Shown: positions 27,609 to 31,388 of the stretch, piece after piece
Position numbering within the stretch: the stretch's first letter is position 1
Layout of the letters: the number at the start of each line of letters is the position of its first letter
Source of the DNA: Deltaproteobacteria bacterium
GTDB lineage: Bacteria > Desulfobacterota > DSM-4660 > Desulfatiglandales > HGW-15
Assembly (NCBI GenBank): GCA_020060215.1
Contig: JAGVAP010000027.1
Span: forward strand, 1 to 36,896
Direction of reading: 5' to 3'
DNA length: 36,896 bases
Notes under the pieces: generated by a model
What the model was told of the DNA's origin: nothing
The model's input: the letters and a program-made list of their open reading frames with translations, nothing else
Database searches by the model: none
Position numbers and translations under genes: made by a program

Positions 27609-28508
27609 TCACAGAGGTGAATTCAGGTCAAACGGGGTGAGACTCTCGTATCCCCCTTCCGTGATCAGGATGGTCTGTTCGAACTGGGCCGAAAGGGAGC
27701 CGTCCTCGGTCACCGCGGTCCAGTTGTCGGGCAGAATGCGGAGATCCTTCTTTCCGAGGTTGATCATGGGCTCAATGGTAAAGACCATCCCCGGCACCAG
27801 GAGGATGCCTTTCCCCTGCTGGCCGTAATGGGGTACTTGCGGGGGCTCGTGAAAGTCAAAGCCGACACCGTGCCCTACAAACTCGCGAACGACGGAGCAC
27901 CCCTGGGATTCGGCATAGGTCTGGATGGCCCACCCGATATCGCCGATCCGGTTTCCCGGGCGCGCCATGCCGATGCCTGCCTTGAGGCACTCCCTGGCCA
28001 CATTGACGATCTTCACGGCATCCGGTCCGGGGGTGCCTGCGAAATAGGTCCTGCTTGTATCGGCATAATAGCCGTCCAGGATCGGGGTGACGTCCACGTT
28101 GACGATATCCCCCTCCTTGATCACCCTGCCACCCGGGATCCCGTGGCAGATCTCTTCGTTCACCGAGACACAGACGCTCTTGGGGAACCCGCGATAGTGC
28201 AGCGGTGCAGGGGTCGCGCCGTTCCTGATCGTGAACTCGTGAACAAGGGTATTGATCTCGTCCGTGGCGATGCCGGGCCGGATGTGGGGCTCCACCAGTT
28301 CCAGGGTGGCAACGGCCAACCGCCCTGCTCTACGGATGGCTTCGATGTCGGAGTTGGATTTGAGGCGGATTCGGTGCTCCCGCAGATACCTTTCCTGGGT
28401 GGATTCCCCGGGGTTTGCGCCCATGCAGCATTTCTTGTACTTGAGACCGCTCCCGCACGGGCAGGGATCATTTCGTCTCACCTTGGCACCATTTCGCTTG
28501 AGAAGCAC
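27609..28508 (-). CDS. map: Methionine aminopeptidase type I with N-terminal SEC-C zinc motif
   Basis: A 299-residue methionine aminopeptidase that removes the initiator Met from nascent proteins. The N-terminal SEC-C motif RRNDPCPCGSGLKYKKCC binds zinc and, in such fusions, may help ribosome association. The catalytic domain has the five metal ligands in DVTPILDGYYADTSRTY (two Asp), GHGVGFDFHE (His), FTIEPM (Glu) and the final Glu in LSAQFEQTILIT; PLHYRGFPKSVCVSVNEEICHG is the substrate pocket. The start is uncertain: GTG 28508 with a G-rich upstream sequence is preferred, GTG 28481 would begin right before the SEC-C motif. Confidence 0.95.
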   Translation of the reverse strand: MLLKRNGAKVRRNDPCPCGSGLKYKKCCMGANPGESTQERYLREHRIRLKSNSDIEAIRRAGRLAVATLELVEPHIRPGIATDEINTLVHEFTIRNGATPAPLHYRGFPKSVCVSVNEEICHGIPGGRVIKEGDIVNVDVTPILDGYYADTSRTYFAGTPGPDAVKIVNVARECLKAGIGMARPGNRIGDIGWAIQTYAESQGCSVVREFVGHGVGFDFHEPPQVPHYGQQGKGILLVPGMVFTIEPMINLGKKDLRILPDNWTAVTEDGSLSAQFEQTILITEGGYESLTPFDLNSPL

Positions 28509-28633
28509 GGTCTCTTTTCCCCCCTGGCCCGTTCCCCGGCACCCGAGCGAGGCTGACGAATTCGTCCCTCGCCCGGCGGGCCGAATAAACAAGATAGCAG
28601 AAGCGGCACATCTATTCAATCTTCAAAAACCTG

Positions 28634-28662: not shown

Positions 28663-28755
28663 CAAATGGCTTAGGCATTCGCCGGCTTCCTTTCAGGGGC
28701 CTCCCAGGGGAGCTTCTCAAGGGCAGAGCGACAGAACCGGATTCCGGAGTGATGG

Positions 28756-28923
28756 ATGAAAACCATTCGTTGCGGCTGCGGGGGTGAACTGGTCCTCGTG
28801 AAGCGCTGAAGGGGCGTATCCTGGGTCTGCAGGTCGTGCGGGCTCACAAGACCTCTTGAGGCGGGGGATATCACCGAGGAAGTCGAAGAGATGATGGCGA
28901 CCATCCGGTGCGACCGGATATGA
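28756..28923 (+). CDS. Small Cys-rich protein with in-frame TGA; candidate selenoprotein
   Basis: Read through one TGA (28807-28809, codon 18), this frame gives a 55-residue protein: MKTIRCGCGGELVLVKR, the TGA position, then RGVSWVCRSCGLTRPLE and an acidic helix ending MATIRCDRI. The Cys pairs RCGCGG and CRSC, with hydrophobic strands between, look like a small zinc ribbon. GGAG precedes the ATG by six bases, a promoter is upstream, and the final TGA overlaps the transporter ATG (ATGA), all marks of a real coupled gene. From memory, small two-CxxC deltaproteobacterial proteins include forms with Cys or selenocysteine near this site; I cannot verify that alignment. A hairpin directly follows the TGA. 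Alternatives are a recent nonsense mutation or a sequencing error. No Sec-synthesis gene is in the window. Confidence 0.55.
28814..28839 (+). promoter_or_regulatory. SECIS-like hairpin right after the in-frame TGA
   Basis: Upper stem CCTG/CAGG (28820-28823 with 28830-28833) closes a GGUCUG loop. A 2x2 internal loop separates it from a lower stem of two G-C and two G-U pairs (28814-28817 with 28836-28839). It starts 4 bases after the TGA. The E. coli fdhF SECIS also shows GGUCU in its apical loop at a similar distance. Short hairpins occur by chance in GC-rich DNA. Confidence 0.35.
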
Positions 28924-30497
28924 ATCCAATGGCAGTCCAAGCCAAGCAGATCGAATCCGAATCCACCCGTGCGCGTGAAGGACGGCTCCGCCGGCTCCAG
29001 ACACCGTATCTGTGGGCCTTTACCACCTATTTCGCGGAGGGTTTCCCTTATTCGCTCATCAGGACCGTCTCGTCGGTCTTCTTCCGGGACATGAGGGTCA
29101 GTCTCGAGGCCATCGGTCTGACCAGCCTTTTCGGCCTCCCCTGGGTCCTCAAGTTCCTATGGGGCCCGCAGATCGATCAGTTCGGCACGAAGCGGCGCTG
29201 GATGCTGGCCATGCAGGCCATCCTCGTCATGCTGATCCTCGCGGTCGCCTTTCTCTCTCCCCTTTCAGGGACCCTGAAGATCATCGCAGTGATCCTCTTC
29301 GTTGGCGCATTCGTCGCCGCCACGCATGATATGGCGATCGACGGCTACTACCTCGAAGCCCTCGATCAGCAGGGGCAGGCCAGATTCGTAGGGTACAGGG
29401 TCATGGCCTATCGAATCGCCATGATGACGGGAACAGGCGTGGTCGTCACCCTTGGAGCGCTGTACGGATGGCTGCTGGCCTTTCTGTCGGGAGGGATCGT
29501 GCTGGCCGCGCTTTTCCTTTATCACCTCCTTCTCCTCCCCGGGGTGGAGCAGGAAAGAAAACCTTTTTCCGCCCTCTTTGATCTCCTCCTCCAGAGGAGA
29601 TCGCTTCTCATCATCGCCGTTCTCGTCGTGGCCGCATCGCTTCTGTCCTGGGCCGGATCGCTTGGGTTCTTCTCGAAAGCAGCCGCCGTACCCGTCCTTG
29701 GGAGGATATCCCTGTCCGGCTGGATAGGCATAGGGCTCCTCGCCGGCCTGCTCCTCCTCGGGCTGTTGAGGAACCGGTTGAAGTCCATCCTCATTCAGGA
29801 GAAGGACTCCTTTTATGCGAGGGCCTTCATGACCTACATGGACCGGGAGCGGATGGGGATGATGCTGTCGTTCATCATCCTGATGAGGGCAGGGGATGCC
29901 ATGCTCTCATCGATGGTCTCCCCGTTCCTGGTCGATCTGGGCATCAAGGTCCACTACGGCTGGATCTCTGCGGGCGTTGGGCTCCCTCTCTCCATAGCAG
30001 GAGCCATGATCGGCGGATGGCTGATCTCCAGATACGGCCTGGGGAGGACCTTGTGGCCTTTTCTGCTCGCCCAGAACCTCACCAACCTCGTCTACATGAT
30101 CCTCGCCCTTTACCTCGCTCCCTTTGTCCACATGAACACAGGGGCGGCCATTCCTCAGCCCATCGGCAGCCTGAACCTCCTCCTGGCCGCATCGGTCCAC
30201 GGCTTCGATCAGTTCGCAGGGGGGCTCGGGACCTCGGTCCTGGTGACCTTCATCATGCGGACCTGCCTCACCGAATTCAAGGCTGCGCACTTCGCGATCG
30301 GTACCGGCCTCATGAACATCAGCGGGGTCTTCTCCGGGGTCCTGAGCGGATTCCTGGCCGAGTGGGCGGGGTACGGGTACTTCTTCGGGATCAGTTTCCT
30401 CCTGTCCCTGCCCGGCATGGTGCTCGCCTTCTCCGTACCCCTGGGGGAGGACGCGGAGAGCAGCCCGGGGAGCGCGAAGCGCATAGCGCAGCACTGA
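28920..30497 (+). CDS. AmpG-like MFS permease (PAT family)
   Basis: A 525-residue membrane protein with about 12-14 helices, related to AmpG, the permease that imports muropeptides (GlcNAc-anhydroMur-peptides) for recycling. Family landmarks are TTYFAEGFPYSLIRTVSSVF in helix 1, LPWVLKFLWGPQIDQFGTKRRW at the helix 2-3 loop, and ATHDMAIDGYYLEAL. Helices in the second half are interrupted by FDQFAGGLGTSVLVTFIMRTC, also typical. The ATG at 28920 overlaps the TGA of the small Cys-rich ORF, and lacks its own strong ribosome site, so it depends on translation of that ORF; an in-frame GTG (28908) and a later ATG (28929) are alternatives. The real substrate may differ, since the next gene is a chelation-type DUF364 protein. 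Confidence 0.88.
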   Translation: MNPMAVQAKQIESESTRAREGRLRRLQTPYLWAFTTYFAEGFPYSLIRTVSSVFFRDMRVSLEAIGLTSLFGLPWVLKFLWGPQIDQFGTKRRWMLAMQAILVMLILAVAFLSPLSGTLKIIAVILFVGAFVAATHDMAIDGYYLEALDQQGQARFVGYRVMAYRIAMMTGTGVVVTLGALYGWLLAFLSGGIVLAALFLYHLLLLPGVEQERKPFSALFDLLLQRRSLLIIAVLVVAASLLSWAGSLGFFSKAAAVPVLGRISLSGWIGIGLLAGLLLLGLLRNRLKSILIQEKDSFYARAFMTYMDRERMGMMLSFIILMRAGDAMLSSMVSPFLVDLGIKVHYGWISAGVGLPLSIAGAMIGGWLISRYGLGRTLWPFLLAQNLTNLVYMILALYLAPFVHMNTGAAIPQPIGSLNLLLAASVHGFDQFAGGLGTSVLVTFIMRTCLTEFKAAHFAIGTGLMNISGVFSGVLSGFLAEWAGYGYFFGISFLLSLPGMVLAFSVPLGEDAESSPGSAKRIAQH

Positions 30498-30626
30498 GTG
30501 CCCCGATTCCCTTGCCCCCCCGAGTGCAGATCCGCTAGAATCGCAAGACAAGGGGTCAAAGGCCCTTCGTGCGTGTGCAGGAGGAGTCGGCCCTGCACCG
30601 GACAGGGGCCGAAAGGAGGCTCATTC

Positions 30627-31388
30627 ATGCGGGTGTCCGAGAGAATCGAAGAGGCTGCCCTGCCCGTCGCCCGTGGGGTGGGGGTGAGGGATGTGCGCAT
30701 CGGGCTGTTCTACACGGCGGTGATGCTGGAAGACGGCCGGGCCGGTGTTTCTTTCACCTTCAATCGCGGGCGCCGCGTGGAGTGCAGCCGGTTAAGGGCC
30801 GTGTGTCCATTGCCCGGTCGGGACGCCTCCGAGCTCGTGGAGCTGATGGATGCTCCGGAAGAGGTCGAGCGCGCCGTGGCCCTTGCCACGGTCAATGCCC
30901 TCGTGAACACGGACCTTCCGACCGCGGGGGAGGGTGATTTCCTGACCATGCTGGACATCCGGCCGGACGAGCAGGTCGGCATGGTAGGCCTTTTCACGCC
31001 GGTCCTGCCGAGATTGCGGCAGAGAACGTCCTCGATCCTCATCTTCGAGCAGAACCCGGACCCCGGAAGAGGGGTCGATCTCCTGCCGGAACAGGATGCC
31101 TACAGGCTCCTGCCCGGGTGCGGGGTGGCCGTGATCACCGCCACATCCATCGTGAACGGGACCATCGACAGGCTTCTCGAGGCGGCATGCAACTGCAGGA
31201 AGGTGGTGCTCCTGGGGGCCTCCACGCCCCTGGTGACCGAACCGTTCGCCGGCACCCCCGTGACGCTTCTCTCGGGAGTCGTCGTGCTCGATGCCGAAGA
31301 GATCCTGCGCCGGGTCAGCGAGGCGGGCGGGACGAGGAGCTTCAAGCCCCATGTGCGGAGGGTGAATGTGCCCTTGAGCCCCGATTAA
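30627..31388 (+). CDS. DUF4213 / DUF364 protein (putative heavy-metal chelation family)
   Basis: A 253-residue protein. The N-terminal part (about 1-85) matches DUF4213, an enolase-N-like fold with GVRDVRIGLFYTAVML and CPLPG. The C-terminal part is DUF364, with VGMVGLFTPVLPRLRQR, the FEQNPDPGRGVDLLPE motif and VVLLGASTPLVTEPF, a Rossmann-like fold in which a conserved site is thought to bind a metal or pterin-like ligand. Function is unproven in all members known to me. GAAAGGAGG lies seven bases before ATG 30627. Its TAA shares a 4-bp TTAA palindrome with the stop codon of the convergent ATPase gene. Confidence 0.85.
   Translation: MRVSERIEEAALPVARGVGVRDVRIGLFYTAVMLEDGRAGVSFTFNRGRRVECSRLRAVCPLPGRDASELVELMDAPEEVERAVALATVNALVNTDLPTAGEGDFLTMLDIRPDEQVGMVGLFTPVLPRLRQRTSSILIFEQNPDPGRGVDLLPEQDAYRLLPGCGVAVITATSIVNGTIDRLLEAACNCRKVVLLGASTPLVTEPFAGTPVTLLSGVVVLDAEEILRRVSEAGGTRSFKPHVRRVNVPLSPD

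Follow-up and report, generated by a model that had tools for sequence, protein, structure and literature searches.

A small ORF with an in-frame TGA that very probably encodes a CxC-type selenoprotein variant of the NF041197 (OS_HP3) family

The window analysed here, that is, the whole stretch of 36,896 nucleotides, contains a 55-residue ORF with a single in-frame TGA. In all probability (about 0.9, judged from sequence comparison) this is a selenocysteine (Sec)-coding gene that represents a CxC-type variant within the NF041197 (OS_HP3) family. The frame 28756-28923 translates as MKTIRCGCGGELVLVKR, followed by the TGA at codon 18 (28807-28809), then RGVSWVCRSCGLTRPLEAGDITEEVEEMMATIRCDRI and the stop; the TGA is very likely read as Sec. 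The selenoprotein assignment is borne out by the relatives of the gene, despite an empty protein-database search and a score just under the naming cut-off of the family. The preliminary description had proposed a new selenoprotein, which does not hold, as the family is NCBIfam NF041197 / OS_HP3 and already named. As far as the sequences tell, what is new is the CxC variant, not the family: a CxC subtype is added to NF041197, whose Cys forms NCBI has named before. The comparison within the family, with Sec or Cys at one position, two registers of the SECIS element and a predicted location of Sec at the zinc-ribbon tip, offers testable handles on function.

The features of the locus are collected in Table 1. 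Several points of the preliminary description were found as claimed. The coding frame is the same on either side of the TGA, with a Cys pair on each side (C6/C8 and C25/C28); the ribosome site GGAG (28746-28749) lies six bases before the ATG; and the stop of the small ORF overlaps, within ATGA 28920-28923, an in-frame ATG of the MFS/AmpG-like transporter gene, for which GTG 28908 is an alternative possible start. Further, the ORF is more than a chance occurrence, for the same ORF with a TGA at the equivalent codon is found in many other genomes.

Table 1. Positions of the selenoprotein candidate, its elements and its immediate neighbours in the window
Feature	Position	Strand	Remark or basis
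Methionine aminopeptidase-like gene (Peptidase_M24 + SEC-C)	27609..28619	-	Divergent upstream neighbour
Shine-Dalgarno-like GGAG	28746..28749	+	6 nt 5' of the ATG of the ORF; from sequence
Predicted selenoprotein ORF	28756..28923	+	55 residues with Sec18; stop TGA 28921-28923; homologues
First predicted zinc knuckle, C6-x-C8	28771..28779	+	CxC is the subtype feature
Predicted Sec18 (in-frame TGA)	28807..28809	+	TGA/Cys counts in relatives
Putative bacterial SECIS hairpin	28822..28846	+	10-bp stem, loop GGUCG 28832-28836, 22 nt after the TGA
Second predicted zinc knuckle, C25-R-S-C28 (CxxC)	28828..28839	+	Same codons form the apical SECIS part
PAT/AmpG-like MFS transporter gene	28920..30497	+	ATGA overlap with the selenoprotein stop

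Relatives of the ORF were reached by way of the transporter: a small ORF lies directly upstream in 3 of 80 transporter loci (L001, L004 and L007). Their identity to the window ORF is 70%, 60% and 42%, respectively, and all three have TGA at codon 18. The four ORFs together formed a model for six-frame searches of Desulfobacterota genomes, which matched 77 of the 395 genomes of the phylum of L001 at E <= 0.01, in 85 places. Of these, 78 were examined (the other seven are weak, with E 5e-4 to 6e-3); together with the window, L004 and L007 they give 81 loci, L001 being already present as L183. The aligned codon 18 is TGA in 65 of these and Cys in 14 (TGC in nine, TGT in five), while two lack the motif; it should be noted that codon 18 was Cys in the search model and that nothing but TGA or Cys passed the motif filter, so that the count leans toward these two and the motif-less loci could not be scored. 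The latter are L191, a Trm112-like chance relative, and L152, an apparently degraded copy (L152:3885-4022) in which the first knuckle and the Sec codon are gone; similar intact copies exist in L159 and L163. The proposal of Sec at codon 18, with TGA or Cys as its counterpart in relatives, is thus upheld by 65 and 14 of 81 loci, and the varied sense codons named beforehand as speaking against Sec appear in none of the 79 loci with the motif, under a filter that favoured TGA and Cys. Among the 85 genomes in the order of the genome of L001, 21 have a match at E <= 1e-6, and every one of these matches contains a single TGA. The gene is patchy, as only 5 of the 17 genomes in the family of the same genome match (E <= 0.001), next to the 21 of 85 in the order. 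A protein-database search with the window ORF gave no match, as there was no candidate with enough words in common; such an outcome would be natural if gene prediction ends the frame at the TGA. The named databases do hold Cys forms, with 261 proteins at E <= 1e-3, several of which NCBI has named 'dual CXXC motif small (seleno)protein'.

The stretch downstream of the TGA is under protein-level selection, to judge from codon comparisons, and to a similar extent on both sides. When 17 pairs of relatives are pooled, with some sequences occurring in more than one pair, pN/pS is 0.286 before the TGA, where the stretch measures 11 codons, and 0.223 after it. Only one of the 17 pairs exceeds 1 before the TGA and none does so after it.

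The RNA downstream of codon 18 points in the same direction. According to section 5 of PMC13188914, a bacterial SECIS (bSECIS) element has a loop of 3-9 nt, a stem of 4-16 bp, a G in the first two loop positions, a distance of 16-37 nt from the UGA and an MFE <= -7.5. The window hairpin (10 bp, GGUCG loop, 22 nt, -13.6 kcal/mol) satisfies these rules. Taken alone, the hairpin region of the window folds no better than controls (z -0.82, p 0.21; second run z -0.83), and scans of the window with Rfam at the gathering threshold and for tRNAs gave no match. Across the family, 35 of the 65 Sec genes have a rule-meeting hairpin at or below -7.5 kcal/mol, where 60 rounds of synonymous shuffling give 9.9 +/- 2.3, with a maximum of 16; among the Cys genes there is 1 in 14, against 0.5 in the shuffles. 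Folding of the whole region gives a mean z of -1.08 in Sec genes, 20 of 65 falling below p 0.05, and of -0.47 in Cys genes (0 of 14), a difference in z-score that is not significant (p 0.12).

As the sequences are related, the figures for covariation are to be taken as supportive and not as probabilities. In the nine sequences that share the register of the window, pairing is 90.1% and covariation is 0.349 versus 0.176 in shuffled alignments (reached by 0 of 500). The covarying columns 17-25/31-39, here and in the clade comparison that follows, correspond to 28823-28831/28837-28845. The 15 members of the clade of the window are 93.3% paired, with a covariation of 0.273 versus 0.187 (4 of 500 shuffles); double-sided pair changes are not enriched among them (53 of 500 shuffles reach them). 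A second register, in which the loop lies six bases nearer the TGA, is found in fifteen sequences (86.7% paired, 14 double-change cells), with a covariation of 0.410 versus 0.228 shuffled (0 of 500) and no enrichment of further pair types (487 of 500 shuffles). These alignments suggest that the position of the SECIS element has shifted inside a single gene family. The second register (group A4) includes L128, L129, L141, L144, L149, L150, L160, L167 and others.

The machinery required by such a reading is widespread among the genomes of relatives. SelB was found at E <= 1e-70 in 353 of the 395 genomes of the sample; as read from the match listings, 75 of the 77 family-matching genomes have it, as do 278 of the remaining 318 (Fisher p 0.007). 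The two exceptions, G049 and G120, both have a tRNA-Sec at 74-75 bits. Overall, tRNA-Sec exceeded the cut-off in 78 of 79 genomes, a cut-off also passed by 5 of 14 control genomes, and reached at least 58 bits in 74 of the 79, the remaining five having SelB. As to the genomes of the closest loci, those of L001 (G001) and L004 (G002) encode full-length SelB, and the tRNA-Sec match is strong in G001 but not in G002; that of L007 (G003) has only a C-terminal SelB-like fragment, but a strong tRNA-Sec match. To judge by the comparison of relatives, SelB with Sec-tRNA very probably decodes the UGA of codon 18 as Sec, with the hairpin at a distance of 22 nt as the guiding signal; the codons of the second CxxC make up the apex of this hairpin.

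The NF041197 profile matches the window protein at E 1.1e-9 and 38.3 bits, below its curated cut-off of 40. In the six-frame search, L007 in G003 scored above the cut-off (41.3 bits) and the loci in G001 and G002 below it (32.4 and 36.4), and in the wider alignment each of the 50 sequences matches the profile at E <= 0.01. The window protein resembles NF041197.2 (CxxC_Se_CxxC, 'dual CXXC motif small (seleno)protein') in size, in the position of Sec or Cys between the motifs, in the second CxxC, in the U-x6-C-x2-C spacing and in the C-terminal DR motif. It differs at the first knuckle, which is CxC and not CxxC, in being two residues shorter past the second one, and in the AmpG-like neighbour found in part of its clade. 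Because it lacks the first CXXC and scores below the cut-off, it is called a variant of NF041197, with which it shares the second CXXC and the Sec or Cys between the motifs. In most of the NF041197-family loci examined the first knuckle is CxxC, whereas the window ORF has C6-G-C8; the 15 members of its clade have CxC there and share the shortening by two residues past the second knuckle, and CxC is also found in L179 and L203-L206. The designation OS_HP3 reportedly goes back to a 2007 paper. NF041197 is listed as OS_HP3 with the motif RxU in PMC13188914, where a 'hypothetical protein DW' (GxU) carries the same accession; the family list entries in PMC13188914, PMC12013277 and PMC9312934 give no function. 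A branch comprising L148, L153 and L184-L189 has GRU (GKU in L187) instead of RxU and lacks the DR at the C terminus. A scan of seven of the eight members gave a match to NF041197 for all seven, four of them at or above the cut-off, and judging by its motif the branch fits the 'hypothetical protein DW' of the literature. In one member (L189:6811-6957 and downstream) the ORF continues for more than 110 residues past the zinc ribbon, a possible fusion.

Other zinc-ribbon families resemble the protein less closely. A Pfam scan of the window protein returned no family at E 10 or at E 0.1, and Zn_ribbon_6 (PF07191) matches 45 of the 50 aligned family sequences weakly (E 0.1 or better). The best PDB sequence match is E. 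coli YfgJ (2jne; E 5e-4), which has the CxxC-x9-C-x6-C spacing in common; its chain is longer and the matches fall in two separate ribbons, and a resemblance so weak led to YfgJ being rejected as a family name. Similarly, Trm112 was rejected because the profile resemblance to Trm112-like ribbons (PF03966) is weak and confined to some relatives (13 of 50 at E 0.1 or better). The PDB match 6zxw_H ('Uncharacterized protein') and L191 are, by eye, what we take to be Trm112-like proteins, and L191 has no Sec or Cys at the codon-18 position. The FmdB model gave weak matches in 4 of 50 family members. FmdB-type zinc-ribbon selenoproteins are listed among selenoprotein families with the motif U/CxxU (PMC9312934); there the Sec lies inside a knuckle, whereas in the window protein it lies between the knuckles.

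An AlphaFold2 model built from 50 sequences is of moderate quality (pLDDT 74.8, pTM 0.52) and places strands at 11-17 and 20-25, Sec18-Arg19 at the turn between them and a helix at 41-48. Zinc-ribbon chains (RNA polymerase subunit I/Rpb9-type, ZifS) head the fold comparisons, none of them strong; no Foldseek match reached E 1e-3, and the lack of a strong fold match is not evidence of absence. Invariant in the 50 aligned sequences are C6, C8, residue 18, C25 and C28. The C-terminal D/N followed by R/K is found in 57 of 57 core Sec rows, and the Cys preceding it (Cys52) in 36 of 57. In the model, C6, C8, C25 and C28 would hold one zinc in a predicted zinc ribbon, while Sec18, at the turn that joins the strands, would be remote from the metal and presumably form an exposed, reactive selenol. 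The protein might then act as a small thiol/selenol redox protein, or as a redox-sensitive binding protein reacting with a partner, with Cys52, where present, as a possible resolving thiol. Based on the predicted fold, such a thiol/selenol redox mechanism is put forward tentatively, at somewhat less than even odds.

The best surviving alternative is that Sec18 is itself a zinc ligand, so that the selenoprotein would be structural or metal-sensing and not redox-active. The second ribbon of YfgJ has Cys at equal spacing (CxxC-x9-C-x6-C), which leaves this option, and the Zn_ribbon_6 matches in 45 of 50 members are compatible with it. However, the four invariant cysteines suffice for one zinc, and the model puts Sec18 in a hairpin turn, which makes a ligand role unlikely and favours the exposed selenol.

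A second question concerns the transporter, to which the preliminary description had considered the selenoprotein coupled. An AmpG-like gene directly follows in 5 of the 15 clade members (the window, L001, L004, L007 and L197), and it is preceded by the small ORF in 3 of 80 transporter loci; to this extent the claim stands. Elsewhere it does not. In each of the other ten clade members, the 1.5 kb or more of available downstream sequence contains no close relative of the AmpG-like gene; the one MFS gene present in L155 and in L199 is remote (27-32% identity) and lies on the opposite strand. The family is present in two of another ten genomes with the transporter, as a Cys form over the cut-off, one with a weak TGA match in addition, and a plasmid collection gave no match for the ORF together with the transporter. 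Across the family the neighbours differ clade by clade, and the transporter was rejected as a constant partner. The 30 representative neighbours annotated include FabD-like, MoaA-like, glycine-cleavage-H-like, semialdehyde dehydrogenase, alanyl-tRNA synthetase, sigma-70, TruA-like, ArgJ, MeaB and outer-membrane efflux proteins, among others. In the clade of the window, queG-like and map-like genes are common to six loci and an FMN-reductase-like gene to four; the map-like gene lies near the ORF in five loci other than the window. In the window protein encoded at 27609-28619, the SEC-C motif precedes the peptidase domain, and a DUF364/DUF4213 'putative heavy-metal chelation' gene (30498-31388) immediately follows the transporter. 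In L177 (6629-8829), the family gene lies between LuxR/Fe-S regulator-like and 2-hydroxyglutaryl-CoA dehydratase D-like genes.

It could be argued that the UGA serves in addition as a selenium switch for translation of the transporter: without Sec-tRNA, ribosomes would stop 110 nt before the transporter ATG, and coupling through the ATGA overlap would cease. The locus would then be a selenium-gated two-gene unit, joining a 55-residue zinc-ribbon redox sensor, with a free selenol at its hairpin tip, to UGA-dependent and hence selenium-dependent translation of the AmpG-like transporter. In favour are the ATGA overlap in the window, the distance of only 1 nt from the selenoprotein stop to the next ATG in L001, and a transporter gene at close range in L004, L007 and L197. 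However, of the four junctions compared (the window, L001, L004 and L007) only that of the window is a true overlap, only a third of the clade (5 of 15) has the AmpG-like neighbour and the rest of the family has others, so that both the switch and the gated unit appear very unlikely. The transporter gene is probably no more than a neighbour in the same transcript, and any functional coupling to the Sec-coding gene would be local.

The preliminary description held that a nonsense mutation fits almost as well as Sec; the zinc-ribbon gene would then once have been intact, or else the TGA would be a sequencing error. A TGA is indeed one base away from sense codons, and decay seems to occur in the family, since the L152 copy has lost the first half of the motif. 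However, the same TGA is shared at the same codon by 65 of 81 loci and by 21 of 21 matches in the order, selection after it is purifying, and the hairpin is conserved and covarying; the view is untenable, and mutation or error is now highly improbable. Just as improbable is that the TGA is read otherwise, as Trp in a deviant genetic code, through nonspecific readthrough or by a frameshift: the frame is open on either side, as such decoding would have it, but it is one and the same frame, the hairpin conforms to the bSECIS rules, the sense codons at codon 18 are Cys and never Trp (under the TGA/Cys filter, the two leftover loci being motif-less), and 15 of the 24 window ORFs whose stop was inspected end in TGA.
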